Positions 49,677 to 63,504 of a stretch of DNA of 64,000 nt are shown here, in pieces (the stretch's first letter is position 1; each line of letters begins with the position of its first letter). The position numbers and the translations under genes were made by a program. Origin of the DNA: Bremerella volcania (GTDB lineage: Bacteria; Planctomycetota; Planctomycetia; Pirellulales; Pirellulaceae); the NCBI RefSeq assembly GCF_007748115.1, contig NZ_CP036289.1, positions 496,001 through 560,000 on the forward strand, given 5' to 3'. Under the pieces are notes generated by a model. The model worked only from the letters and a program-made list of their open reading frames with translations. It was not told the DNA's origin and searched no databases.

Positions 49677-51539
49677 CTAAGAGTTCGAATAGATATTCGA
49701 CACGCTGAGTTTTCGCAGCGTCGCCAGTTTTTTGTGCTGATGGTGTTGCATTCGTTCCAAGACATCGGAGAGAAACTGGACTGTTTCGACAATATGCTCT
49801 CCTTTGTTCAACATCACGCATTCTGCGCGGCCACTCATGGCCGCATCGGTGACTTCTGCCCGGGTCGGTAGTCCTTTCTTGGCCAGACTCTCCAGGACCT
49901 GCGTCGCCCAGACCACCGGTACGTGAGCCGCCTCGCTCAGCCAGAGGATTTCCTCTTGAACTTCCGACATACGGTTGAAGCCGATCTCGACACCCATGTC
50001 TCCGCGAGCCACCATCACCCCAATCGGCGGATGCTGAAGTGCCGCGAGCAGCAACTCGGGGAGATTTTGAAAGGCCTGTTGCGTTTCGATTTTAAGAATG
50101 ACTCCGAGTGAATCGGCGCCGCGAGCATTCAACTCGTCGATCAAGTCTTCCACGTCACGGACATGCCGCACGAACGAATAGGCTAAGAGATCCGCGTTCG
50201 CGACAATGAAATCAAGATCCGCCCGATCCTTCTGAGTCAACGCAGGCAGATTGAAATGGGTGTCCGGAAAGTTGATTCCTTTGTCACTCCTGATCTTCAC
50301 CGCGTCTTTGCGTGTTTGCGTGACTTCGATGACAACCTTTTCCGCGGACGCTTCGCGAACAACGGCTTGCAGTTCGCCGTCGTCGTAGAAAAAGCGATCG
50401 CCTGGACGCACGTCCTGGTAGATTTCAGGCAAGTTGCAACCGATGCTCGCAGGCTCAGTCATGTTGCCGTTGGCATCTTTTCGGGCAGGGTGCCCCGGAA
50501 TATCGCCATCAGTCAGCACGATAAGATCGCCAACTCGAACATTGAATTCATGGTCGGTTTGTCTGGCAAACGTTTGAGCGATGTTTCCTTGAAATACCTG
50601 CTCGTCACTTCGAAGCACACAGAAAGGGGCATTGGGTTCGACAAATGCTTCGTCTTCCCCCTCAGCCCAGCAGCCGCCGTCTTCCACGGAAATGACCGTA
50701 AGCGTTTGCTTGCGGCCGCGAGTATCGGTGACCAGTAACTTGTCCCCCTGTTGAATGTTGCCCATGGCATCAGGGGGAACTGGCAGGACTTCATCGGCGT
50801 TTTGATGCCCAGTGTCCCGAGAAGAAATCCATACCTTCGCGCGCGACCGGATCTTCCCGACGTCGTTCAGACGGGGACGCCAATGCAATACGCCGGGCTT
50901 CGATTCCAGCGGGCCGGTTCGTGGGTTAGGACCGGCCAGGTCCATCTGCACTTTGCACCGACGGCCCGTTTCCTTTTCGGCGCGCCGAAGGTGTTCGATC
51001 ATCTGCGCCCAGGTCTTGTGGTCATCTTTCGAGCAATTGATGCGCATGACGTCCATGCCTGCCTGTAACAGCTCAAAGATCAGACCATACTGCCGGGCGC
51101 CCTCGCTGGGAATCGTCACCATGATGCGCTGCTGCCGAGAACTACCTGGTTCGCCGAACAGAACATTCGTATTCTGATCGAGATGGGCGCGGCCGGCTTG
51201 GAAGCCCTCGTAGGAGTTTTGCAGATCGATCTTAGGCGGCGTCCGATCGGCCAGGCGATAAAGGGCCGTAAGCACGGCATCGATTGTCGGCAGCACGTAG
51301 GCTTCCATGCGGCCGAGCGAACTCAATCCCAAGGCATGCAACTGATATTGCAATTCACGGATATCATGCTGGCGAACACTCAGGTAATGCACCAGGTTCC
51401 GACCACATTGCCGCTGCGACTCAGGGATCTTCGCCAGGGAAGAGGAGAAATCCTCTTCCAACTTGAGGGCCCCCTCGCGAAGCTGAAGCAGGGAGTCGAT
51501 TAAAGTCGTGAATAGTTGATCACTTGAGTTGTCCATCAT
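49677..51539 (-). CDS. Pyruvate kinase-like protein with atypical architecture
   Basis: A 620-residue protein. Residues about 135-600 carry a pyruvate kinase barrel: IMVTIPSEGARQYG, MDVMRINCSKDD, KVQMDLAGPNPRTG, LPALTQKDRADLDFIVANAD, ILKIETQQAF, VMVARGDMGVEIGF and WATQVLESLAKKGLPTRAEV. Metal- and PEP-binding residues (Lys/Glu in KIE, Asp in RGDMG) are present. An N-terminal helical extension of about 130 residues is added, the B-domain region (about 220-400) is enlarged, and the usual C-terminal allosteric domain is missing. Effector regulation must differ from standard Pyk; catalytic activity is likely but unproven. Convergent with cdsA. Confidence 0.8.
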   Translation of the reverse strand: MMDNSSDQLFTTLIDSLLQLREGALKLEEDFSSSLAKIPESQRQCGRNLVHYLSVRQHDIRELQYQLHALGLSSLGRMEAYVLPTIDAVLTALYRLADRTPPKIDLQNSYEGFQAGRAHLDQNTNVLFGEPGSSRQQRIMVTIPSEGARQYGLIFELLQAGMDVMRINCSKDDHKTWAQMIEHLRRAEKETGRRCKVQMDLAGPNPRTGPLESKPGVLHWRPRLNDVGKIRSRAKVWISSRDTGHQNADEVLPVPPDAMGNIQQGDKLLVTDTRGRKQTLTVISVEDGGCWAEGEDEAFVEPNAPFCVLRSDEQVFQGNIAQTFARQTDHEFNVRVGDLIVLTDGDIPGHPARKDANGNMTEPASIGCNLPEIYQDVRPGDRFFYDDGELQAVVREASAEKVVIEVTQTRKDAVKIRSDKGINFPDTHFNLPALTQKDRADLDFIVANADLLAYSFVRHVRDVEDLIDELNARGADSLGVILKIETQQAFQNLPELLLAALQHPPIGVMVARGDMGVEIGFNRMSEVQEEILWLSEAAHVPVVWATQVLESLAKKGLPTRAEVTDAAMSGRAECVMLNKGEHIVETVQFLSDVLERMQHHQHKKLATLRKLSVSNIYSNS

Positions 51540-51795: not shown

Positions 51796-51878
51796 GGAGG
51801 ATACGCGAACTGGCTAGCAGCTTGACTCGAAATCAAGTGCCGGGTAACCGGTTGAGGGTTCGAATCCCTTGTCCTCCG
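51796..51878 (+). tRNA. tRNA-Ser (anticodon CGA)
   Basis: Cloverleaf: acceptor GGAGGAT pairs with GTCCTCC (51871-51877), discriminator G. The anticodon arm CTTGA-CTCGAAA-TCAAG gives anticodon CGA, reading UCG serine codons. A long variable arm (GCCGG, GTAA, CCGG) is typical of class II tRNASer. The T arm holds GGTTCGAATCC. CCA is not encoded. The 3' end is the attachment core of the element that follows, and integration leaves the tRNA sequence complete. Confidence 0.93.
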
Positions 51879-53176
51879 CTAAAGTCTTTTGTAGCAACAG
51901 GTTGCGTCTCGCAACGCTTCGCAGAAGTGGCCTCTGTATCACGCTTTAGGGGCGACTCCTGCGAATTGCTACGAACGCCAGCATGCCGGTGCTGCGTCGT
52001 TTTCTGCGCCACTTGTGCGCCGCTTTGTGCGTCTCTCTTCGATCCTTTAATTGCCCTCTGAAAATCTTCCTCCGTGACTTGAAGATAATGCTTGATGGCA
52101 ATGCTAGGGGTGTTCCCAAGCCAATCTGCTACCACATGGATTGAGTGCTGATCGGCGAGAAGTTCGGTTTCTCTGCTAGATCTAAGGTTTTGGAACAGTC
52201 GGGGCCATGGTGTAAGGCCGGCTCGATCGATAATTCTTTCAAATTGAGTTCTCAGGTTGATGTTGCGCCATCCCTGGGGAGTATTCGCTTTGTCTCGATA
52301 GTTGCCTCCGATAACGTAGATCGCGCCATCTGGGGCAATTTCCTGGGCGTCTCGGAGGATCGGAAACAACTCAGGGAAGATTGGAATCTCTCGTCGGTCT
52401 TTGCCGTGGTTCTCGGTCTTGGGGGATCGAACAATCATCCGGCATTTCGGTAGGTAAACGTCCTGCCATCGCAGTGAGAGCACTTCGCTAGGGCACCGCA
52501 AACCGCCATACCGTGCCAGCGCGACGATTACCCGCCATGTAGGATCGCAGACTTCTAGAAGCCGTTCCGTGTCCTCGCGCGTAATGAAGCGTTGTCTATC
52601 CTTTACGCCTATCGCTTTATGGTTGACGTTCTCAAAGGGATTTTCCGGAATCAATTTTCGTTTCTTGGCATTTCCAAAAAACGTTCTGCAAAACTGTAGT
52701 CGCTTGTGGATCGTCGTAGACGCTAGTCCAGTGCCGATCAGGTGAAGCTTAAAGTCTTCTGCGTCCCCTTCCGTGATAGTATCGAGGACACGATTTTCGC
52801 CAAAAAATTCCTTCAGGTTGCGGATTGGCTGGGACCAGACTTCCCGCGTCGCCGGCTTGACGTTGATTCTCTTGGCAACGTATTCCGTAAGAAACTGTCC
52901 CAATAATGCCCGCTCCTGTTTTTCTCGATCCTCAATTAGACCTACCTTGGCTAACTTCTTTGCTAGAGGGGGTTCCAAGGCTGCAACCCATCTTGCAGTA
53001 TCGCCGTCCAAGGCATGGCAGGTAATCTTTGCTGATAGCAGCAATTCGACTCGGTGTTTTACGGCCTCGCAGTTGCGTTTGCTAATCTTACCGAGACGGA
53101 TCGTCTTACGTTTGCCGTCGGGAGCGACAAATAGAATGCGACGGGTACCGTTCGGGTCATTACAAATCGATGCCAT
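51833..53176 (-). CDS. Tyrosine integrase of the tRNA-Ser element
   Basis: A 447-residue tyrosine recombinase. A SAM-like core-binding region at about 90-190 (FLTEYVAKRINVKPATREVW) precedes the catalytic domain from about 195. Catalytic Arg is in ARYGGLRCPSEVLSLRWQDV, the second Arg in PRLFQNLRSSRETEL, and the nucleophile Tyr in SIAIKHYLQV. The usual His residues are replaced (QNLR, GNT), as in planctomycete integrases I know. The frame runs into the attachment core, so its last residues (SGGQGIRT, then LNRLPGT) are read from the antisense strand of tRNA-Ser. In the excised circle the frame would instead continue into the sequence at 63459-63276, giving about 500 residues. Confidence 0.9.
   Translation of the reverse strand: MASICNDPNGTRRILFVAPDGKRKTIRLGKISKRNCEAVKHRVELLLSAKITCHALDGDTARWVAALEPPLAKKLAKVGLIEDREKQERALLGQFLTEYVAKRINVKPATREVWSQPIRNLKEFFGENRVLDTITEGDAEDFKLHLIGTGLASTTIHKRLQFCRTFFGNAKKRKLIPENPFENVNHKAIGVKDRQRFITREDTERLLEVCDPTWRVIVALARYGGLRCPSEVLSLRWQDVYLPKCRMIVRSPKTENHGKDRREIPIFPELFPILRDAQEIAPDGAIYVIGGNYRDKANTPQGWRNINLRTQFERIIDRAGLTPWPRLFQNLRSSRETELLADQHSIHVVADWLGNTPSIAIKHYLQVTEEDFQRAIKGSKRDAQSGAQVAQKTTQHRHAGVRSNSQESPLKRDTEATSAKRCETQPVATKDFSGGQGIRTLNRLPGT
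51858..51880. repeat. attL core, 23-bp direct repeat
   Basis: Begins GTTCGAATCCC and ends CCTCCGCT; spans the T-arm and acceptor of tRNA-Ser. An exact copy is at 63460-63482. Flanking bases differ on both sides, fixing the crossover segment within these 23 bp. Confidence 0.92.
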
Positions 53177-53414
53177 TCTTTGATTCTCCGTAATTACTGT
53201 TCTATGCGATTGTATGCCGCTTCGTGCGGGCTAGCTAGTTGTTTTTTTGTTCAAGCCGGCAAGTCCCAAGAAATCACTTACCGGTCTTGAGTGAATCGGG
53301 GCGAGAGGTCGCCGAGAGTATCTTGGATGCGAGTGTGAGAACTTACTCGCAGTCAACGTCTACGAAACCCGGGAGTTATTCGAAGACTGTTGGGGATACG
53401 TAGACAGTAGACAG
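53177..53414. promoter_or_regulatory. 238-bp region upstream of the integrase
   Basis: Holds the integrase promoter and the 3' end of the primase transcript, both on the minus strand. No clear dyad or T-tract stem was found. Integrase arm-type sites could lie here but none is visible as a repeat. Confidence 0.35.
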
Positions 53415-55601
53415 TCAATTGAGGCTGAAATAACGCGTAGGACGTCCCCCAGTGTTTCCAATGGATGATTGTTCCCAGGATCCCAACCCCTTCCGGGCCA
53501 GATTGTCTAGTGCTGACTCGGCATCTTCTGTTGTCTCAAATCGGCGGCTACTTTGCCGTGCTTGCCTAGCAGTTATCGGATTGCCCCTTCTCTTAATCCA
53601 ATCGACTAGGGCTCTCTCTTCTCGTTGAGATTGTGACTCTGCCATTATCTGGTAGACGCGTCGCGTCTCATGTTTGAACCACTCGGTTAATTCTAAGGCC
53701 ATGCAAAGTGTATCGCCGTCAATCGATCGATCATTCTTCAAATTGGCGTCTTTCGCGGCCCATCTAACGCAATGGATCACGAGTGCCAGCCTCGCCGCGT
53801 ATTCTTCAAGCTTCGACCAGGCCGATGCAAGTTCTCCGCTGAGTTCGCTTTGTTCCTTGGCATGTCGGTCATAGAACGTCGTATACAACGACTTAACCGA
53901 TTTCGAAAGTGTTATTACTGCCGGATCACGATTCACGTCTTCGACTATCTCCGGCTCTAGCGAGTACAGTCGATCAAACACATCAGAGAGGCATTGCTGC
54001 TGCTCATAGGAAATACCCGTTTCGGTCCACTTCTTCGCTCTGCGTGGTGGATGACTGAGAAGGAATCGGGCGGCCATACCGCTTTCGAAATGATCGCGGC
54101 CAAGAGTCTTCTTTAATACTGCCGGCTGTATTCCGCCGGTGATCGAAACAATGGAACGAGGTACCCGAAGCGTTTTGGGAATGCCTGACTTTCGGTCAAT
54201 CGTCACCTCCCCGCCTGTGTGCATCGAAAGATAGCGTGCGGCGTCTCCACCCCCTTTACCCTGCGTATATCGGTCAAAAGAGGAAAGCCACCCTGAGAGT
54301 TCATCTCGTGCAAGAAGCAGGCCCCTGGGATTTGATTTGAGAATAGGGACCAATGCTTCGAGCGTGGTATCGTCGACAATGTGGCGAGTCGCCTGAGGTT
54401 CTACCGGCTTCACTGGTGGTAACTCGTCTGCATTGCTACCTTTCTTCCATTTCTGGAACTGCTTGTCGTAGATAGCTATCGCATCTTCATGCTGTCGGAT
54501 CAAACCGTCGTATTCTTCGAGGTTTTCATTCTCACGAGTTCGAACGGCGCTCAATGCTGCTTTGAAGGCCGGTGTTTTTGCAGTTCCACTTTCCCCAACG
54601 ACGGCTGTCCATAGGATCGGTAGCACTTCCCACCCATCTTTTAGTCGCAAGCAACGAGAATCACCAATCGCAGATGCGAGAGCGGAAAGCAATGGAAGTG
54701 CAAGGAAGACTTCATCGCACCCGATCGCTCTTGCGCCGTCTCGGACAAAACTGCAAACTGGCTCGGGTAAAAACTCGATGGGAAACGGCTCGAAATCCAA
54801 GCTATCGCCTGTTTCATAGGCGACTTGTTGCGGTTGCCATATTTCAGATTCCTGCACCAGTTCAGCTAGTTTGTCGTCGGTTCCGCCTGATTCAATCCAG
54901 TCGCTCACATCACCCTTTAACGGCAAGCCGGGCAAGTGAATGAGTTTGATGCTACGAGCAAGCCCTACAAGCGTCTGTGCGACCTTCTCAGCGTGTTTCT
55001 CTCCGGCTTCATCATTGTCAGGCAGAATGATTACATCGCGATTCTGGAGGAACTGAGCGTGCTCTTGATTCCACTTTCCAGCGCCGCCGGCATTGCAAGT
55101 GGCAACGAGTCCGATTGCTTCCAGAGAATGAACGTCTTTCTCTCCTTCGACGATGAAAACAGAAGCGTCTGGGTTGGCTAGTAGCTGGGGAAGGCGAAAC
55201 GGGACAACTCGAACCCCTTTCACTGTCCAATCCCATCCGTCATGCCCATCGGGCTTTCGCTGACGGAATGTCTTATTCTCGTATCGCACCGATTCCATGA
55301 GCAACTTGCCGGCCTCGTCTTCGTAGGCGTATGTTTTCACGATTTTACCTTTGTCTGGTTTCTTGCTTGGGTTGAATTCCGTTTCGTTTGGCATGAGATC
55401 CGACATTTGCAGGCCCATCGACGCGCAAACTTGATCAGGAGGGCAGTCAGCATGACAGTGGATGAGGGCTCTTCCGTCTTCGCCTTCGGTAACGCTCAAA
55501 CTGGAATGCTGGTCAGAATGGGCTGGGCAATGCGCCTGCCAGCCCGATTTAGTCTTTTTCACGTTCTTGAGACTACTAAGAACAAGATTAACGGGCGTCA
55601 T
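53415..55601 (-). CDS. Mobile-element primase-helicase (CHC2-like, TOPRIM, DUF3987)
   Basis: A 728-residue replication protein. The N-terminus has a primase-type zinc ribbon (Cys25-x2-His28 and HCHADC at about 48-53). A TOPRIM domain follows at about 145-230 (ASVFIVEGEKDVHSLEAIG with the catalytic Glu, VIILPDNDEAGEKHAEKV with Asp-x-Asp). The DUF3987 helicase-like part starts at about 270, with a P-loop-like VVGESGTAKTPAF at about 340. Such proteins initiate replication of phage satellites and islands. Its ATG overlaps the end of the Xis-like gene by 14 bp, so the two are coupled. It supports replication of the excised element. Confidence 0.88.
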   Translation of the reverse strand: MTPVNLVLSSLKNVKKTKSGWQAHCPAHSDQHSSLSVTEGEDGRALIHCHADCPPDQVCASMGLQMSDLMPNETEFNPSKKPDKGKIVKTYAYEDEAGKLLMESVRYENKTFRQRKPDGHDGWDWTVKGVRVVPFRLPQLLANPDASVFIVEGEKDVHSLEAIGLVATCNAGGAGKWNQEHAQFLQNRDVIILPDNDEAGEKHAEKVAQTLVGLARSIKLIHLPGLPLKGDVSDWIESGGTDDKLAELVQESEIWQPQQVAYETGDSLDFEPFPIEFLPEPVCSFVRDGARAIGCDEVFLALPLLSALASAIGDSRCLRLKDGWEVLPILWTAVVGESGTAKTPAFKAALSAVRTRENENLEEYDGLIRQHEDAIAIYDKQFQKWKKGSNADELPPVKPVEPQATRHIVDDTTLEALVPILKSNPRGLLLARDELSGWLSSFDRYTQGKGGGDAARYLSMHTGGEVTIDRKSGIPKTLRVPRSIVSITGGIQPAVLKKTLGRDHFESGMAARFLLSHPPRRAKKWTETGISYEQQQCLSDVFDRLYSLEPEIVEDVNRDPAVITLSKSVKSLYTTFYDRHAKEQSELSGELASAWSKLEEYAARLALVIHCVRWAAKDANLKNDRSIDGDTLCMALELTEWFKHETRRVYQIMAESQSQREERALVDWIKRRGNPITARQARQSSRRFETTEDAESALDNLARKGLGSWEQSSIGNTGGRPTRYFSLN

Positions 55602-55797
55602 GCTGGCCTCCCTTCAGATTCGCTTCCAGATAGGCTTGCAGGTCCGCAATCCGGTATCGGGTCAATCGACCCATCTTCAGGTGCGGAAGGCCTGGGGTTT
55701 GGGTGAAGGTCATGTCCCAGAGCTTCCTTGGCGAGATGGACAGTAACCTCGCGGCTTCATTGGGGGACACGAGTAGTTTGCCGGTGTCTTCGTTCAT
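55588..55797 (-). CDS. AlpA/Xis-like helix-turn-helix protein
   Basis: A 69-residue MerR/excisionase-type DNA-binding protein: KLLVSPNEAARLLSISPRKL forms the helix-turn-helix, followed by the wing HLKMGRLTRYRIADLQAYLE. Length and sequence fit AlpA/Xis regulators that direct excision or activate int in islands. Met 55797 is chosen over 55833 because the upstream residues are Cys/Arg-rich and non-homologous in look. It is translationally coupled to the primase (14-bp overlap). Repeated GGGCGGACA motifs lie 100-190 bp upstream and may be its or another regulator's binding sites. Confidence 0.82.
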   Translation of the reverse strand: MNEDTGKLLVSPNEAARLLSISPRKLWDMTFTQTPGLPHLKMGRLTRYRIADLQAYLEANLKGGQHDAR

Positions 55798-55896
55798 GGT
55801 CGTACATTCCTTTGTGCGACAGGTCCGAACCACGAAGTGTGGCTCGCATATCTGTATTTTCCCGGAAATCAGCGTTTAGAGTTGCGGAAAGACGTT

Positions 55897-55981
55897 GGGC
55901 GGACATTTGTCCTCCCGCAGGACACGGCCTGTAGTCGCAAGAAAACGCTAGGAAAAGTTTTGGGCGGACAATGGGCGGACA
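55897..55981. promoter_or_regulatory. Triple GGGCGGACA repeat with an adjacent dyad
   Basis: GGGCGGACA occurs at 55897-55905, 55962-55970 and 55973-55981, all in the same direction. The first overlaps a short dyad, GGACA-TT-TGTCC (55901-55912). The position between the unknown protein and the Xis-primase genes suggests an operator or replication iteron region. Confidence 0.45.
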
Positions 55982-55993
55982 ACTAGGCTGCCG

Positions 55994-56671
55994 CTACTTG
56001 ACGTACCTGGAAGCCAGTTCTTGTATTGCCGTGGCATCCGCACGATAGAGAAAACGCGGTTGGTTCGGTTGCGGATTATGGACTTCCTGCCACGCTTCAT
56101 CGCCCAGACTCAAGCGTTTTCGTTGGAGTGCCTTGGAGAAAGCATCAAACTTGTCGGCGGGTACTTTATAGGCGTCCGCTAATTCCCGAACGCCCATCCA
56201 GCTAGTAGAGGTGGGAGCTGATTTCGAATTGGTCTTTTTCGCTGGGGTAGTTACGACATTTTTGGACTGTAGCCTGAGCCAAACAATATAGTCTGAAGCA
56301 GCCTTTTTTGCGTGGGCCACCTTCTGACGTAGTTCAAGATCGGCAGCCGTTGGCGATATGAACGCACTTCTACCAGCCGCCAGTAAGGCGGCCGTATGTT
56401 TCTGCAAGTCACGAAGTAGATCAGATACCTTTTCGGCATCGACGGGATTCAAGCAATGCAGATAGTTGTCTGCAGTGGCAATGACTGCATTTAACTTGCC
56501 GATATCGCAGACGAAACTCCCGTCTTCGCTTCGCGTCACTAACGCCGATTCGAAGTCATCAAGCCAAGCCAGGAAAGTCTGAATGGACTCAGGTGAACCG
56601 ACATATATTGGGAGTTGTTTTGCTGTCATTTGGCGCAGGTTTGGTTGAGTTTCATCGACAAGGAACAACAA
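55994..56671 (-). CDS. Element-encoded protein of unknown function
   Basis: A 225-residue soluble protein. The N-terminal 130 residues look helical (IQTFLAWLDDFESALVTRSE, DAEKVSDLLRDLQKHTAALL). A Lys/Ser/Thr-rich linker (about 140-155) leads to a C-terminal 65-residue domain (WMGVRELADAYKVPADKFDA, then ALQRKRLSLGDEAW) that could be a winged helix. I recognise no family. Met 56629 (MTAKQLPIYVGSPESIQ) is an alternative start. It is the first gene upstream of the Xis-primase pair and borders the CRISPR array region, so regulator or replication accessory are possible; nothing specific is shown. Confidence 0.6.
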   Translation of the reverse strand: MLFLVDETQPNLRQMTAKQLPIYVGSPESIQTFLAWLDDFESALVTRSEDGSFVCDIGKLNAVIATADNYLHCLNPVDAEKVSDLLRDLQKHTAALLAAGRSAFISPTAADLELRQKVAHAKKAASDYIVWLRLQSKNVVTTPAKKTNSKSAPTSTSWMGVRELADAYKVPADKFDAFSKALQRKRLSLGDEAWQEVHNPQPNQPRFLYRADATAIQELASRYVK

Positions 56672-57060
56672 CGAGTTGGTAATTTTTCGCGGCTCTGATC
56701 ACCTATAGCGAAAACGCGTTTCACTCGGGAAAATACGATATTCCCGGCATATTGGGCCTATTGCTAGATATTGAACTATAGGGGTGTTCGATACCGGTCA
56801 TCACGGACAGAAATGGAGGGGCCTCGCATGCGTACGGAAAACCGGTTTCCGCGCCGCAAATTGCGCCGGCTTTTCTGGTTGTAGCCCAATTCTACGGAGA
56901 AAACCGCCAATGTTCGAATGGGGGAAGGACCACTGATACCACGCATGGTCGAAAATCATATGATTCGACTCTGAAAATCCGCGATTGGGTGCCCGCAAAT
57001 TTTTTGAAATACATAAGGAGCCGGGAGAATCCTTTTTGCATATTATCATTTATCAGTGGC
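56672..57060. other. 389-bp non-coding region before the CRISPR array
   Basis: AT-rich next to the array (56996-57050), like a leader. A bulged dyad, GTCGA-AA-ATCAT and ATGAT-TCGAC, lies at 56948-56969. A GC-rich stretch near 56836-56872 has two near-palindromes (GGAAAACCGGTTTCC and GCCGCAAATTGCGCC). It must hold the promoter of the unknown gene, possibly a CRISPR leader and perhaps a replication origin. No protein gene is credible here. Confidence 0.5.
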
Positions 57061-58415
57061 ACCAATTGGCCATCCCAGGCAGGAATCAGATACACTGTGC
57101 AGGTGTAACAGCCCTGGGCGGTCAGTGTTGCGGATTGGTCCCAGGCAGGAATCAGATACACTGTACGACTTGTGCCGCATGATGCGAGAGATGTTGCGGA
57201 TTGGTCCCAGGCAGGAATCAGATACACTCAATTCTCGTACAAGGTCGGTACGATTTTCGTTGCGGATTGGTCCCAGGCAGGAATCAGATACACTCGTGAA
57301 GCTTGGCAACCTCAAGGACCAAGCGTTGCGGATTGGTCCCAGGCAGGAATCAGATACACTTTATCAATCGACTTCCCGCTTCCCCGAACTGTTGCGGATT
57401 GGTCCCAGGCAGGAATCAGATACACTCAGAGATCACGCTCGGCACGGTTGATAACGGTTGCGGATTGGTCCCAGGCAGGAATCAGATACACTATCCCAGC
57501 GCATCGCCCCGAGGGCGTGGTAGTTGCGGATTGGTCCCAGGCAGGAATCAGATACACTTCCCATGGCGGCGAGCCCAGCGAGTGGCCGGTTGCGGATTGG
57601 TCCCAGGCAGGAATCAGATACACTAAAGAACTCGACGGATGCTGGCGACTGGTGGTTGCGGATTGGTCCCAGGCAGGAATCAGATACACTTTCTCGATCG
57701 ACGCCTTCGACGTCGAACTAGTTGCGGATTGGTCCCAGGCAGGAATCAGATACACTTTAGTTTTCATGCGGCGATCACTCGCCGTGGTTGCGGATTGGTC
57801 CCAGGCAGGAATCAGATACACTGCGCGGTCCGGTGCTTGATTACTGGGTCGAGTTGCGGATTGGTCCCAGGCAGGAATCAGATACACTGCATCGACCACC
57901 GGCCACGTCGCCTCGGCCGTTGCGGATTGGTCCCAGGCAGGAATCAGATACACTTGGACCGATATGCGTTTGCGTGGGTCGCATGTTGCGGATTGGTCCC
58001 AGGCAGGAATCAGATACACTAGAAGAGCTTGCCGATGCAAAGGGCAAGATGTTGCGGATTGGTCCCAGGCAGGAATCAGATACACTCGCCTGCCAGTATG
58101 AAAACCCAACTCAGGAGTTGCGGATTGGTCCCAGGCAGGAATCAGATACACTGGCGGGCACGGGCAACGGTGGATTAGATGCGTTGCGGATTGGTCCCAG
58201 GCAGGAATCAGATACACTGGATCGCCGAGCCGGTAAGCTGCTGAAGCGTTGCGGATTGGTCCCAGGCAGGAATCAGATACACTCAAGAACTACATCCTGC
58301 CCTACCCGATCAAGTTGCGGATTGGTCCCAGGCAGGAATCAGATACACTCGTGCACGCGGTATGCCATTACTTCGGCGAGTTGCGGATTGGTCCCAGGCA
58401 GGAATCAGATACACT
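57061..58415 (+). CRISPR. Type II-C CRISPR array, 21 repeats and 20 spacers
   Basis: Repeats are 36 bp (starting GTTGCGGATTGG, middle TCCCAGGCAGGAATC, ending AGATACACT) on a 66-bp period; spacers are 30 bp except one of 29 (58219-58247). The first repeat (57061-57096) is degenerate: its first 12 bases differ but the last 24 are exact. All the others appear identical. The strand is set by the tracrRNA anti-repeat: crRNAs read on the plus strand, opposite to the cas genes. The array ends 48 bp from the cas2 stop. No spacer was seen to match this window by eye. Confidence 0.97.
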
Positions 58416-58463
58416 ACCTTCCTGCTAAGTGGCTTAGTCGCAATGAGTTACGCCTAAACGACC

Positions 58464-58793
58464 TTAAAAAAGTTCGAGTTGATCGGGCATTTGAGGAGAG
58501 CATTCGCGTAATTTTCCGAGCATAAATTCCATGCGTTCATACTGTTTGTCAGTGATGGAGAGCACTGCCACTTCTCCCTCAGGTGGGAGAAATGCGCGAA
58601 TCCGTCGCAAATGAACTTCCGTGCTTTCCTTCGATGAGCATGGGCGAAGGTAAATAGAGTATTGCATACGATGAAAGCCATCTTCAAGCAGACGCTTTCG
58701 GAATAGAGCGTATTCCTTTCGTGCTTGTTTCGTATCGGTCGGCAAGTCGAACATGGCCATGATCCACATCGCACGGTACCCTGTTATTCGCAT
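58464..58793 (-). CDS. cas2: CRISPR-associated endonuclease Cas2
   Basis: A 109-residue Cas2, the partner of Cas1 in spacer integration. Start chosen at Met 58793 (MRITGYRAMWIMAMFDLPTD), which has the Cas2 ferredoxin-fold opening with the conserved Asp after the first strand, and FHRMQYSIYLRPC as the second half of the core. It overlaps the end of cas1 by 10 bp, so the two are coupled. It is the last gene of the cas operon, 48 bp from the array. Confidence 0.93.
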   Translation of the reverse strand: MRITGYRAMWIMAMFDLPTDTKQARKEYALFRKRLLEDGFHRMQYSIYLRPCSSKESTEVHLRRIRAFLPPEGEVAVLSITDKQYERMEFMLGKLRECSPQMPDQLELF

Positions 58794-59674
58794 GGCACTG
58801 GGATCTCCAAGGTAGTCTGCTCTTTGCGCAAGCACCTAACCAAGGAACCGAGCATACGATGCAAATGAACCATGAAAGGACCGCTTTCGCCCACAATCGT
58901 TGTCTGGCGAGATAGGAGCTTTAACAACTCTCCCTTACACTCTTGGGTTAGAGATTCGTAACCTTGACGATGGAGTTCCCGAACCCGTTCGTCGACCATG
59001 GGACGAAAAGGTTCAATCAAGTCATCTGCCAGACAGAAAGGATTGGAGCGATTTCGATGATGAAGCCCTAATGCGGGCGTCAATCCGGCGGAAACAATGG
59101 CGCGGGCGATGGCTGCCCTAGCAATCGCGTATCCATAATTGAGCAATGAGTTGATTCCATTGCTGTCAGGATCGCGGCGAAACTCCACTTCTGGGTACCA
59201 GAACTGCCAATAAATTTTGGCTGCCCTTGCTTCCACATTGGATGCATCGCCTGACTTAACCTCAGGGACTAGTGCCTTTAACTTCCTGCGACCAGGACAA
59301 TGCTTTGGTAATATCGAAGCTTGGGCGTCAATCTTCGCGCGGATGATCTGTTGCCAAAGTCGTTTGCATAGCGGCTTTGACGCTTCAATCTGCTCATTCA
59401 ACCGCCATACAACCTGGCTATGATCGGCCAAAGGAAGCAAGATCGCGGCTGGAAGGTGATTCTCTCCACAAATGACAACGGCTGCGTCAGATTCCGCCAA
59501 ATGCCGGAGCGCCGCATGTGTATAGGTGGTGCCAGGATGATCGACAACCACCATTCCAATTTCTTCACAGGGAATCGTGTGAACGATATCCCCTTCTCGC
59601 TTGAGAGTGAGCTGCTTGTGCCGCAACCCTAAATGGAACGACTCACGGGAAATTTCAACGGTGCGTTTGATCAT
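58784..59674 (-). CDS. cas1: CRISPR-associated integrase Cas1 (type II)
   Basis: A 296-residue Cas1, the spacer-integration enzyme. Start chosen at Met 59674 (MIKRTVEISRESFHLGLRHK), the typical type II opening; the frame extends to 59734 but adds unlike residues. Metal-binding residues are present: Glu148 in SNVEARAAKIYW, His205 in LTPALGLHHRNRSNPF and Asp217/218 in CLADDLIEPFRPMVDERV. Overlaps cas2 by 10 bp. The system should therefore be able to acquire spacers. Confidence 0.96.
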   Translation of the reverse strand: MIKRTVEISRESFHLGLRHKQLTLKREGDIVHTIPCEEIGMVVVDHPGTTYTHAALRHLAESDAAVVICGENHLPAAILLPLADHSQVVWRLNEQIEASKPLCKRLWQQIIRAKIDAQASILPKHCPGRRKLKALVPEVKSGDASNVEARAAKIYWQFWYPEVEFRRDPDSNGINSLLNYGYAIARAAIARAIVSAGLTPALGLHHRNRSNPFCLADDLIEPFRPMVDERVRELHRQGYESLTQECKGELLKLLSRQTTIVGESGPFMVHLHRMLGSLVRCLRKEQTTLEIPVPCE

Positions 59675-59783
59675 AGAACCCAAACTTCCACAATACACAG
59701 ATGAAGTTGGGTCGTCCGTGACATAAATGCGCAACTAGCGCGTCAGAAGAAATTGTAATTACACCCGTGAGGTATTCAATATA

Positions 59784-62700
59784 TCAATCGCTTGCATCTC
59801 GTATTTGTCCCAATGGAGTCACTGTCACCTTACGGGCATCGCGCAGTTGCATGTTTTTGGGCGTTAGGTAGAGATTATCATAGTTAAGATCTGCTACCGG
59901 TCTCGCATCAGTGTGCTTTTTGTAAAAGACTCGCCTGCTACGTTGGTCGATTTTCCGAACAACACAAAGGACGATCTCGCCATCATCCTGGGTCATCTCA
60001 AACATCTCGCCGATAGACAGTGACATGACAAATCGCCCCTGATGGCCATCGTCGCGACAAACCATGCTTCCGCACTTATCAAGGTCTTTCGCCCGGCGAG
60101 CAGCGTCCCACATAACGGTCACTTCGCCTTTCCAGACCTCTTCTCCGTTTTCTTCCACGGCGAAATAAGCAATATGATGATTGCTACCAGGCTTCGTAAG
60201 CTGTCTATTGTCCCCTTCTCGGATCGGACGAAAAGTTTGTCCCTCCTCTACCATACGAACCTTTTTGATAGGCACACCAGATGGCATCTGTGGGGTATTG
60301 CTGCCGGTGAAAGCTTCTTTGGGAATTGCTCCGGGCTTGGCTGGATCGATCTTCTGTCGAAGCAAATGATCTTCAAGGATCTGGCGAGTCGCTTTGTCGC
60401 GAATTTTTGCTAGATGCTTGGTATTGGTCAGGTCGGAAACACTCTTGCGGCGGACAACGACTTGCTGATCTTCAATCCAATCCTTAGCCCAAGGCCTTTG
60501 TTCACTCGGTATCGGGCGCTCCTTCTTTTGGGTAGGCCCATAGATGGTGGCTTCATGCAATGCCCCTTGAATGCGTCTGCGAACACGATGAGAAACGTTC
60601 ATGCGTCCCAATGCTTTTGCGACATCATGACGAAGGTCCTTCCATGGCAATTCCACGTCTTTGCCGCGGGCGTTCGCCAAAGCATGGAGGCGTTTCGCAT
60701 CCGTCAGGCCAATGACAATCGCGTCGATTGCATGATGACGATGGTCGGAACGATTTTTCTTTTTCGATCCATCCTCGTTCAGCAAAGCATTCAGCCCCCA
60801 ATGATGTCTCAACTCCGCTGTCATCGACCCTTTGACGGTGGTAATCGGAACACCAAGCCCTTTTAAATATTGAGCAAGTAGACGGCTAATATACGTCGTA
60901 TCACGAAGTTGACGCTCAACAAACTCATTAAGCTCAACGTCCTGCTTGATGAAACGCTGGCGTTTTCCATAAGGCAACTTTTGGGTACGAAGGAGCAACT
61001 CGTCGAAGTGTTCCTTATTATGACTTAGCCACTCCCATGGCGTTCGATCCGCTTTTTCGTTATTGATGGAGCGATGGCAGATTACCTTGTTGGACATGGA
61101 GTCATCGAGGCTTCTCCATCGAGGGAGAATGTGATCGACATCTACTTCTCCGGAATTGAACAGCTGAGCTTGGCTAATACTTTTGCCTGAATAAATACAA
61201 ACACCTCCCTGTTCCTGCCACAACAAATACCGCTGAATGTTGCGCCGAGTCGGCTTGATAGCGGGGGACATGTCCTGCAATGCTTTGGCAATTTTGGCGT
61301 TTTCTCGCTCTCGCTTTGCGTTTGCAATCCGAATCTGGGTCCGTTCTTCTGCGGATTTCTTCGCCTCGCGGGCCAATTCCACACGAATAGTTCCTAGATT
61401 GCCGTATTCACGAATGAGTGAATTGATCACTTTCCGAATTTCATAGAGTGCTTGGCGAACCAGGGGATTGGGAACGTCAGGCGGCTCAGGTAAAAGGTCG
61501 TACTGTCTTACCTCTCTTTCATCAGGCCGGAGGTAACCAGCCGCATGCAGCGCGGAATCAGAAGCGTCATTTCCCATCAAAGGCATGCCAATCTCCAAAT
61601 GGGGAAGCAACTTGGAAATGGCAAGCCGCGAGTAATTCGTATACCCAGAAGGCAGGTGGAGAGACGCAGCCTTCTGGGCTTCTTCCGATGTAAGGCCGCA
61701 CTCGTTGGTCAACTTCAATAATGCTATATCTTCTCGATCTTCCTCCAGCACAATCCGGATGATTTCATCCTTGACCCTATCAGCGATTTCGCTCCAGCGT
61801 TTTTTGCCCAGTCCATTCTTCCCATTAAAGAGGGCATCCGTTTCATGCCCCTTTAATTTGGAACGCTCGCCACGCTCATAGTTAAACTGAATTGATTCTG
61901 GCAGCTTGAACTTCTTGCGAATCTGAGGAAAAGTTCTCTCTTTGGCCTCGCACAAATAGTCCACGAGCTTCTTATCGGAATCGGGACCGAGGAACTCGGC
62001 GAATGTATATTCCTTTCGGTCCGCGGGTGAAATAAGCCGCAGATTATTGACTTCCTGCAAGATCCGAAATCTCTGCGCCAAGCGATCCGCTTTCGGGCAG
62101 CGTTTTTCCCTGGGCTCTAAATCGCAACGTCCGATGATGCTTTTCGGCCAGTACATCTTGCGTTGAAAGAACAAGAGGCCATGTAGCCCAAAGCGTTCTA
62201 GCAGCGATTCATCTTTACGACGCGCAACTGGGGTAAGCGGATAGCTGCTTTTGCCTTCCTGGCCGTAACGCAACTTAACCGTGAGTAGCTTAGGATGATA
62301 GTTGGCCTGAGCATTCCAAATTTTCTCGAATTCATGTTCGTACATAGCACGAAGCGTATGGCGTCCACGCAGTCGTACCGGAAATGCGTCATTGCCACTA
62401 CCAAGATGATAGAGATATTCACCTAACGTCTCGTAGCCAGCAGATGTAATATCTGCATCTAGCTGAGCCATATCCGCTTTGATGCCCTTCAGTTCACTTC
62501 CGCCGCTCCGGTCGGTCGTACGATTAGACAGAAAGCCTCTACGTTTTGCTAAATGCAGAAATACGCGGCCGAGTTCATGCGGTGAAAGCTCTTCACGAAG
62601 TGCCTTCGCTCGAAGTTCGTACGGGTTCCGTGATAAAACCTTCTCCTGCTCCTGCGGTTCAACTGGGAAAAGACCTGCGTCAACAAGAGCCTTGGTCAAC

Positions 62701-62912
62701 TGCCGAATCCTTTGAGCACGACGACGAATCTGCCGCCGAATCCCCCGTGCCACGCGGCGGCTTTGCGACTTCGATTTCTCGCCACCTTGCTGATCACGGT
62801 CGACACCTTCGGGGAATATTCGCACTCCACAGTCAACTAGAGTGTTTTCAGAAAACAAAGCCCATCCAAGGGAAGTTGGGCCAATGTCGAGGCCAAGAAT
62901 AAGATCAGACAT
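59784..62912 (-). CDS. cas9: Type II-C CRISPR RNA-guided nuclease Cas9
   Basis: A 1042-residue Cas9, in the compact II-C size range. RuvC-I is LILGLDIGPTSLGWALF with Asp9. An Arg-rich bridge helix follows at about 52-72. The recognition lobe fills about 75-480. RuvC-II is TIRVELAREAKKS with Glu512. HNH is VDVDHILPRWRSLDDSMSNK with His594, plus NNEKADRTPWEWL. RuvC-III is SDHRHHAIDAIVIG with Asp730. The PAM-interacting region occupies the C-terminal 200 residues. All catalytic residues are present, so both strands should be cut. Followed by cas1 (109 bp) and cas2; no csn2 or cas4. The divergent tracrRNA starts 120 bp upstream. PAM cannot be read from sequence. Confidence 0.97.
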   Translation of the reverse strand: MSDLILGLDIGPTSLGWALFSENTLVDCGVRIFPEGVDRDQQGGEKSKSQSRRVARGIRRQIRRRAQRIRQLTKALVDAGLFPVEPQEQEKVLSRNPYELRAKALREELSPHELGRVFLHLAKRRGFLSNRTTDRSGGSELKGIKADMAQLDADITSAGYETLGEYLYHLGSGNDAFPVRLRGRHTLRAMYEHEFEKIWNAQANYHPKLLTVKLRYGQEGKSSYPLTPVARRKDESLLERFGLHGLLFFQRKMYWPKSIIGRCDLEPREKRCPKADRLAQRFRILQEVNNLRLISPADRKEYTFAEFLGPDSDKKLVDYLCEAKERTFPQIRKKFKLPESIQFNYERGERSKLKGHETDALFNGKNGLGKKRWSEIADRVKDEIIRIVLEEDREDIALLKLTNECGLTSEEAQKAASLHLPSGYTNYSRLAISKLLPHLEIGMPLMGNDASDSALHAAGYLRPDEREVRQYDLLPEPPDVPNPLVRQALYEIRKVINSLIREYGNLGTIRVELAREAKKSAEERTQIRIANAKRERENAKIAKALQDMSPAIKPTRRNIQRYLLWQEQGGVCIYSGKSISQAQLFNSGEVDVDHILPRWRSLDDSMSNKVICHRSINNEKADRTPWEWLSHNKEHFDELLLRTQKLPYGKRQRFIKQDVELNEFVERQLRDTTYISRLLAQYLKGLGVPITTVKGSMTAELRHHWGLNALLNEDGSKKKNRSDHRHHAIDAIVIGLTDAKRLHALANARGKDVELPWKDLRHDVAKALGRMNVSHRVRRRIQGALHEATIYGPTQKKERPIPSEQRPWAKDWIEDQQVVVRRKSVSDLTNTKHLAKIRDKATRQILEDHLLRQKIDPAKPGAIPKEAFTGSNTPQMPSGVPIKKVRMVEEGQTFRPIREGDNRQLTKPGSNHHIAYFAVEENGEEVWKGEVTVMWDAARRAKDLDKCGSMVCRDDGHQGRFVMSLSIGEMFEMTQDDGEIVLCVVRKIDQRSRRVFYKKHTDARPVADLNYDNLYLTPKNMQLRDARKVTVTPLGQIRDASD

Positions 62913-62999
62913 GTAATTGTCTTTTTAGAATGCAGTCGTTGTATTGCGGACAAGATATAGGAGAAATTCACTAGCCTAGAATATCACCATTTGACTGCG

Positions 63000-63027
63000 T
63001 TGACACCCCAATTGGAGTGGCTATACT
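63000..63027 (+). promoter_or_regulatory. Strong sigma-70-type promoter of the tracrRNA
   Basis: TTGACA (63000-63005), 16-bp spacer, TATACT (63022-63027). The predicted start near 63034 coincides with the first base of the anti-repeat region. Confidence 0.75.
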
Positions 63028-63033
63028 TCAGGG

Positions 63034-63143
63034 CGTGTATCTGATTCCTGCCTGTGACTCTTTTCGTAACAAGAATGAAAAATTCGCAGGCACTGCTCTA
63101 CGGAGCAACCAGCCGTCATGTCTAGTGCAGGGCGGCATTTTTT
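63034..63143 (+). ncRNA. tracrRNA
   Basis: The first 36 nt (63035-63070) are the anti-repeat: 20 nt from 63035 to 63054 are an exact reverse complement of the CRISPR repeat 3' half, then a bulge, then GAC and CG.AAC matches that pair with the repeat 5' end. Next come GAAT/ATTC, a nexus-like hairpin TGCTC-TACG-GAGCA (63094-63107) with a stable UNCG-type loop, and a terminator GCCGTC/GGCGGC (63112-63136) followed by TTTTTT (63138-63143). About 110 nt in all, divergent from cas9. Confidence 0.88.
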
Positions 63144-63275
63144 ATGCGCCGATTTCGTTGACCGTGCAAATTGGGCTGGCGAGGGTTAGGTGCCGTCGTT
63201 GATTATTCGAGACTACCAAGTCATTTTCTCGACAAGGGAAACGTCATGAGATCAACGGGGGTGAATCTCCGGCGG

Positions 63276-63482
63276 CTAGGGGGCGTTGTTGATACGAGCA
63301 TCTTGAACAAGCAGCATAATTTCGCGGCGTACGGACTCCGAGAGGCTATCCCAGGCGTTGACTACTGACAAAAGATCAGGTGACAATGTGGCGCGAAGTG
63401 CGCCGGATTCTGCGCCGCCTTGCTCGGAAGATATCGTTTTTCCAGTGGTTTCTTCATCTGTTCGAATCCCTTGTCCTCCGCT
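63276..63482 (-). pseudogene. Stranded integrase C-terminal segment at the right end of the element
   Basis: Read on the minus strand from attR, the frame SGGQGIRT continues into 60 residues ending at a TAG at 63276. It includes the helical stretch LSPDLLSVVNAWDSLSESVR and REIMLLVQDAR, which resembles the C-terminal helices of planctomycete integrases as I recall them. The frame is the same as the one in which the integrase crosses attL. In a circular form it would be the natural integrase C-terminus; in the integrated state it has no start and is not expected to be expressed. Confidence 0.75.
63460..63482. repeat. attR core, 23-bp direct repeat
   Basis: Identical to 51858-51880. It contains only the T-loop and acceptor end of tRNA-Ser, so it is not a second tRNA gene. 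It marks the right boundary of the element. Confidence 0.92.
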
Positions 63483-63504
63483 CAAAGGCAATATTCGAGC
63501 ACAT

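Follow-up and report, generated by a model that had tools for sequence, protein, structure and literature searches.

A tRNA-Ser island of Bremerella volcania with a type II-C CRISPR-Cas9 locus and an integrase gene overlapping its own attachment core

Background

How does a complete CRISPR-Cas9 locus come to lie next to a transfer RNA (tRNA) gene and an integrase gene, and what becomes of an integrase gene whose reading frame contains the attachment (att) core at which the element recombines? Both questions are raised by a locus of the planctomycete Bremerella volcania, contained in a window of 64,000 nucleotides (the whole stretch analysed), which corresponds to positions 496001-560000 of the host genome, a single contig of 6,496,182 bases. 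An earlier note, made from the sequence alone, had described the locus as a tRNA-Ser-integrated element carrying CRISPR-Cas9 as cargo, and this description is borne out by the repeats, the gene content and the empty sites reported below. The sequence shows an integrative island, some 11.6 kb long, that a tyrosine integrase placed in tRNA-Ser(CGA), at its 3' end. The best joint explanation, which we regard as very probable, is a tRNA-Ser island with type II-C cargo, in which the att core lies within the integrase gene (int) and integration exchanges the C-terminal tail of the enzyme.

Results

The island and its empty site

The features that delimit the island, and those bearing on the integrase, are the following:

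51796..51879, plus strand: tRNA-Ser(CGA), the integration target, whole after insertion (ARAGORN; Rfam RF00005, 29.5 bits)
51858..51880, no strand: att core, left copy (23-bp perfect repeat)
51833..53176, minus strand: tyrosine integrase, integrated form, its final codons being tRNA antisense (PF00589, PF13102; family alignment)
63279..63458, minus strand: displaced 60-residue C-terminal integrase tail, in the phase of int across the core (frame, core and tail comparison)
63460..63482, no strand: att core, right copy (attR; 23-bp repeat), followed from 63483 onward by the sequence of the empty site of two congeners, G001 and G002

The left copy of the perfect 23-bp direct repeat (51858-51880 and 63460-63482, or 26 nt at 96%) falls at the 3' end of tRNA-Ser(CGA); with a start-to-start spacing of 11,602, the two copies enclose about 11.6 kb, as the earlier note had it. 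Within the repeats, the minus-strand order from right to left is cas9, cas1, cas2, array, a gene for a 225-residue protein, a helix-turn-helix (HTH) gene, a DUF3987/Toprim gene and the tyrosine integrase. The guanine plus cytosine content is 51.1% within the element and 56.9% on its left side. The features of a tRNA-targeting integrative element, namely a tyrosine integrase, flanking core repeats and an intact tRNA, are all present; no relaxase or conjugation genes, expected of an integrative conjugative element (ICE), were found among the 7 element proteins scanned.

To the left of the tRNA lies a gene (49677-51539) for a pyruvate kinase-like protein of 620 residues, a full-length, 85% identical homologue of which is found in only two of eight congeners, G001 and G002. 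The other six feature only a distant pyruvate kinase, and were left out of the empty-site test using that anchor. In both congeners keeping the left flanking gene, the empty site is resolved to the base pair: an exact copy of window 51796-51880 joins directly to the sequence that follows the right core of the window, so that tRNA, one core and right flank are continuous, an arrangement which the earlier note had proposed to look for. Element, boundaries, empty site and cargo can all be read from these comparisons. As a side observation, about 4.2 kb of unrelated DNA, with open reading frames (ORFs) of 812 and 454 residues, adjoins the same tRNA-Ser right flank in G001 (L081 11007-15237).

The att core within the integrase frame

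The gene list of the earlier note lacked one ORF at attR, 63276-63491 on the minus strand, which is the displaced integrase tail: it contains the attR repeat, shares frame and core with int, and runs on into the 60-residue tail. Its sole start codon, a TTG at 63491, lies in the host flank. The integrated int itself retains its catalytic motifs, the R in GGLR, LRSSRETE and HYLQVT.

The arrangement is not confined to the window. Relatives of its integrase were found in 84 of 98 relatives' genomes, and in 16 of 20 family loci the 3' end of int falls inside the antisense of a tRNA 3' end (Ser, SeC, Glu, Val, Leu, Ile). A search of the class with tail plus core (71 residues) produced 141 matches, in 105 of 397 genomes at E 0.01; 132 of them are stop-free, while nine contain an in-frame stop. 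The bare tail, searched across the phylum, was detected in 15 of 392 genomes at E 0.001. An integrase domain is present in only one of the 12 long ORFs that match the tail, so some of the 141 weak matches must be considered false.

Twenty-two orphan-tail loci, of up to 23 kb each, were examined; five short tail loci (L156, L157, L158, L185, L186) were omitted from the core-pair search, L156 being included in the later scan for the unsplit form. In nine of the 22, an exact 14-25 bp tRNA-core repeat is found at the start of the tail, with its partner 5.2 to 20.9 kb away; as a control, a match of at least 14 bp to the tail region was obtained with 12 of 3781 random 50-nt windows drawn from eight orphan-tail loci. 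With the window included there are ten pairs, nine of which, having an int ORF that reaches the core, entered a test of phase; L159 features a core pair and no int ORF up to the core, and L103, with its degenerate core and a tail interrupted by a stop, does not belong to the nine. The phase of the core turned out to be identical in int and orphan tail in all nine elements (Ser, Met, Glu, Val and Leu tRNAs), 52-64 tail codons following, a result with a chance probability of (1/3)^9. As far as their sequences tell, these nine elements carry a frame-matched split of the integrase gene.

A GGAESGA stretch of the integrase alignment (columns 401-440) is shared by the tail and, ahead of the core, by the linker of several integrases, so that the tail may have originated by duplication. 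Two further family integrases are found in the same genome, at tRNA-Glu(CTC) (L111 8069-9427) and tRNA-Val(TAC) (L112 9888-11240), the latter interrupted by a stop.

The unsplit form

With the att core lying within int, int and tail are expected to form one ORF in circular elements. Such an ORF was found in six of 53 viral-collection loci scanned, four of them distinct: L300/L301 (identical over 9,564 bp), L302/L303 (99.9% over 10,090 bp), L312 and L313. Thirty-five of these loci were classified and 18 were not; of the former, eight of which are cut by the contig end, six feature the tail, three a tRNA overlap, and none both. The contigs of L300 and L301, of 35,729 and 35,701 bases, are not opened at the same point, an indication that the genome is circular; the L300 core resembles that of the window, and L301 contains a Mu-portal match slightly below cut-off. 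As assembled, these viral-collection contigs hold the unsplit form. Among genomes the unsplit form is rare: of the 12 long ORFs only L170 has the integrase domain, integrase and tail share one ORF in G204, and a fragment was found in G437.

The CRISPR-Cas9 locus and the other genes of the island

The remaining features of the island are:

53415..55601, minus strand: primase/helicase-like protein, Toprim plus DUF3987 (PF13148, 4.5e-65; PF13155; PHROG DNA helicase / DNA primase)
55588..55833, minus strand: AlpA/excisionase-like HTH protein, HTH_17 (PF12728; PHROG 66; TIGR01764 below cut-off)
55994..56671, minus strand: 225-residue protein (C-terminal stretch of about 80 residues found in 5 of 146 other genomes)
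57061..58415, plus strand: CRISPR array, 21 repeats and 20 spacers (strand of the CRISPR RNA deduced from the trans-activating CRISPR RNA, tracrRNA)
58464..58835, minus strand: cas2 (TIGR01573 above cut-off, PF09827)
58784..59734, minus strand: cas1, type II family (TIGR03639 above cut-off, PF01867)
59784..62912, minus strand: cas9, 1042 residues, RuvC and HNH motifs present (TIGR01865, 684.6 bits; HNH_4 (PF13395), RuvC_III, Cas9_a; PF18541)
63000..63027, plus strand: promoter-like site TTGACA-16-TATACT (11 matches out of 12; by chance, the scanned region would hold 0.7 sites at the lower threshold)
63034..63145, plus strand: predicted tracrRNA with 36-nt anti-repeat, hairpins and T-run (fold -46.5 kcal/mol, z -4.13; homology to Blastopirellula marina up to 63147)

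Integrase, DUF3987 replication protein and AlpA-like HTH protein make up the backbone of the island. The HTH protein, labelled Xis-like in the earlier note, matches PHROG 66, "excisionase and transcriptional regulator", weakly (3e-6), and falls below the cut-off of the excisionase model TIGR01764; the label is plausible at most, and the protein may act as Xis. The 225-residue protein belongs to no family above cut-off in Pfam, PHROG and NCBIfam scans; in two of the five genomes sharing its C-terminal part, this lies less than 4 kb from a family integrase.

The hallmarks of type II-C, Cas9 with RuvC and HNH motifs, adjacent type II cas1 and cas2, and a tracrRNA with anti-repeat, are found together. 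Neither csn2 nor cas4 was recognized: region 58416-62912 contains no further gene-sized ORF beside cas2, cas1 and cas9, small overlapping ORFs having not been profile-searched. Repeats are 36 nt and spacers 29-30 nt long, with a degenerate repeat at the 57061 end of the array. A tracrRNA had been proposed by the earlier note, and one is indeed predicted, with its direction corrected: most likely it is transcribed from the plus strand, divergently from cas9, at about 63034-63145, because the anti-repeat (63034-63069), the hairpins and the T-run downstream of it sit behind the promoter-like site, which ends 7 nt before. Its 3' end was not flagged by a terminator scan.

The locus would presumably confer immunity. 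Spacers compared with phage sequences gave no match to the array; plasmids gave a single weak partial match (E 0.1), 3.4 Mb of other loci a best match of 19/22, and the genomes of 147 relatives chiefly other arrays, plus short matches. One spacer (57361-57390) matches, at 27 of 30 bases, the host's own chromosome at 2917101-2917130, and the equivalent place in G002, within a large ORF, either as a diverged self-match or by chance. The nearly palindromic spacer 57691-57720 has short matches, of 21-29 bp, in several relatives' genomes.

Cargo exchange

Among 80 named CRISPR-Cas loci, the nearest is that of B. marina DSM 3645, a member of a related genus (Cas9 77%, Cas1 86% and Cas2 81% identical), the next best Cas9 being 53% identical. 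At the nucleotide level, the B. marina locus is homologous to window 58183-63147, a segment that begins in the array and takes in the tracrRNA. The B. marina locus has four repeats, and lies at a chromosomal site different from the tRNA-Ser site of the window, between genes that are presumably fliG and dnaX; two tests detected no integrase there, and three other genomes of its genus lack a CRISPR-Cas locus at that place. Three housekeeping proteins, a small sample, which we take to be RecR, DnaX and YbaB, are 76%, 66% (over 384 residues) and 57% identical between the window host and B. marina; set against the Cas identities, these figures hint at transfer of CRISPR-Cas.

The earlier note had counted, as evidence against the element, a CRISPR locus in strains lacking the integrase module at this site. 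A CRISPR locus without an integrase does exist in B. marina, but its different chromosomal site favours cargo exchange instead. The same Cas genes being found in both a fixed and an island setting, the CRISPR locus looks like an interchangeable cargo of the island.

The sibling elements are only partly a proof of a defence-island family. Type I restriction-modification genes are clear in two of nine, L160 and L163, and PADLOC gave any match for 8 of 20 sibling cargo proteins. L159 (a kinase), L149 (GAP1-N2, by Pfam) and L183 (below cut-off) are suggestive, L153 has a marginal match only, and no defence genes were recognized among the scanned proteins of L148, L166 and L167.

A family-profile integrase was detected near Cas9 in four (L083, L095, L211, L221) of 93 Cas9 loci, 80 named and 13 from relatives, 52 of which are at least 12 kb long; L083 and L095 are part of the integrase profile by construction, and a profile tuned to the family may miss other integrases. 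Neither of these two stands as a second CRISPR element of the family: in L083, cas9 lies beyond the int 3' end and hence, by family logic, outside, and in L095 no second core was found as far as the contig end, about 51 kb. In L083 8711-17781 (G065), a family integrase is accompanied by an AlpA-like gene and a primase remnant; a diverged cas9 and cas1 are close by, separated from these genes by an rve transposase. L095 1413-11848 belongs to G002, the only one of the eight congeners with a Cas9, and is on a contig other than that of the empty site; its type II-C locus differs from that of the window (33% identity between the Cas9 proteins) and is located 3' of tRNA-Ser(GCT) and a Phage_integrase gene, while an 86% copy of the neighbouring ABC/FtsX genes is present on another contig.

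Structure and possible role of the tail

The unsplit L300 integrase was modelled by AlphaFold2 on an alignment of 12 sequences, with a mean predicted local distance difference test score (pLDDT) of 74. The core is confident, the linker (381-467) has pLDDT below 50, and the tail is predicted as two helices, 469-480 and 483-495 (block means 81, 88 and 71). The tail has no match in Pfam or NCBIfam; it may be a docking module, made of helices and held to the core by a flexible tether.

In the excised circle, int would read via the joined site (attP) into the conserved tail of about 60 codons. Upon integration the tail would be severed and carried to the opposite end of the island (63279-63458), leaving an int which ends in a few tRNA-antisense codons, its catalytic domain staying whole. 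If the tethered tail were needed, or best used, in one direction of the reaction only, integration itself would remove it, and the integrated state would be favoured until the HTH protein drove excision, which we infer to occur in the sequenced strain. A role of the tail swap in directionality is a possibility that we put forward tentatively.

Discussion

The swap might equally be neutral, the core simply overlapping a dispensable end of the integrase and the tail serving another role, such as protein stabilisation; we consider this possible, without preferring it. The tail contributes nothing to the catalytic domain, which is complete in its absence, and int is open in integrated copies, as a neutral swap would allow, but the tail sequence is conserved across families of the phylum and is predicted to fold as a helical pair. 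Conservation suggests that the elements pass through the circle often enough for selection to act on the tail.

It is less likely, and on balance doubtful, that the island is, as the earlier note suggested, a phage satellite, here of the PICI or P4 kind, dependent on a helper phage and having CRISPR-Cas9 for its defence cargo. Its gene content is that of a satellite, with integrase, AlpA-like regulator and primase as replication gene and no structural genes for a virion, and size and att repeats fit as well; moreover, one viral-collection contig combines a family integrase, a primase-like fragment and the below-cut-off Mu portal match. Yet no packaging, capsid-remodelling or terminase-like gene was found among the 7 element proteins scanned, no helper was identified, and the siblings, of 5-21 kb, have no visible shared packaging module.

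It is improbable that the tail found at attR forms a small gene in its own right, or is what remains of an earlier element: it does have an open frame of its own and orphan tails occur in many genomes, but the phase identity in nine of nine elements, the fused ORFs of the viral contigs and the position of the sole start codon in host flank all point to a piece of int. Least credible is the notion that CRISPR-Cas is old chromosomal DNA, beside which an integrase module inserted, a chance or secondary repeat mimicking cargo; although the B. marina locus without integrase could be cited in its favour, that locus lies elsewhere, and at the tRNA-Ser site this is refuted by the empty sites of G001 and G002, which hold neither CRISPR nor integrase.

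A tRNA-Ser island whose integrase exchanges its tail thus remains the preferred explanation. Several observations weigh against parts of it. Thirteen of the 22 orphan-tail loci gave no partner core within the stretch examined, which was bounded by a short contig or by a distance of 20 kb; the integrase domain is found in only one (L170) of the 12 long ORFs mentioned above; and the tail profile can match the GGAESGA linker upstream of the core (L065). The tail model relies on an alignment of 12 rows, few containing the tail. Active immunity, like the fight against competing elements that the earlier note envisaged, has no spacer target to support it among the phages, plasmids and relatives searched, and the case for excision, transfer and expression is indirect, drawn from a single assembled genome.

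Resolved to the base pair, the locus is an example of a Cas9 system, complete and equipped for adaptation, on a small tRNA island that is not conjugative; no such report was found in the phylum. Should the tail matter, the enzyme would be rewritten by what its own reaction produces, and this gives a handle on the choice between integration and excision. The in-frame orphan tail at attR may also help to find where planctomycete islands and phages end on the far side, these being otherwise hard to delimit. More broadly, we propose as a plausible, still tentative idea that planctomycete islands and phages feature a bacterial class of self-splitting integrases, in which each integration would remove the conserved helical C-terminal module; a reversible directionality switch would thereby operate at many tRNAs without destroying the enzyme. 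Only in the circle would the module be restored. An island of this kind would have become a self-contained vehicle for adaptive CRISPR-Cas9.

Comparison with known systems

P2/P4-type phages and satellites with defence hotspots are reportedly small integrase-carrying elements with exchangeable defence cargo, likewise the window island, which differs from them in showing no evidence of a helper or of packaging. The novelty implied by the earlier note, which knew of no planctomycete example, was overstated insofar as CRISPR-Cas9 on tRNA islands has been published for Vibrionaceae and Campylobacter; no planctomycete case was found in the open-licence literature. In Vibrionaceae, tRNA islands with integrases carry complete type II-B CRISPR-Cas systems (PMC6360697): they share with the window a complete cas9-cas1-cas2-type locus, an integrase, a tRNA site and an empty site in a relative, but are of type II-B with cas4, measure about 30 kb in V. 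natriegens and belong to another phylum; integrase splitting is not mentioned in the accessible portion of that article. In Campylobacter, a cas9-only II-C system lies on a tRNA-Met ICE, CampyICE1 (PMC8743540), which resembles the window island in its type II-C cas9, its integration at a tRNA (Met) and its DNA primase, and differs in being conjugative and 70-129 kb long, in having no cas1/cas2 and at most three short arrays, and in its spacers, which match plasmids.

The split integrase is the more surprising and more novel part, compared with the CRISPR cargo. No bacterial precedent for an att-split integrase was found in the open-licence literature, and other literature may well already record short overlaps between att and an integrase gene's end. 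In the integration-dependent immunity of mycobacteriophages, att recombination alters the C-terminus of the repressor, whereas here the integrase itself is altered. Arrangements in which att overlaps the integrase promoter (PMC2951348, PMC6035254) differ from an att within the int frame. According to a 2021 review (PMC8371274), self-disrupting integrases are exclusively archaeal. The archaeal suicidal (SSV-type) integrases are alike in that the att site is inside the integrase gene, as is the core in nine of nine elements here, and in that integration splits the gene. In the SSV type, however, the enzyme has a Phage_integr_3 domain and is cut into inactive parts, while the bacterial family described here is of PF00589/PF13102; the integrated int keeps its PF00589 domain and catalytic motifs whole, only the tail of about 60 residues being exchanged, and because the catalytic domain is kept whole despite the att core in frame, the family is not of the SSV type.

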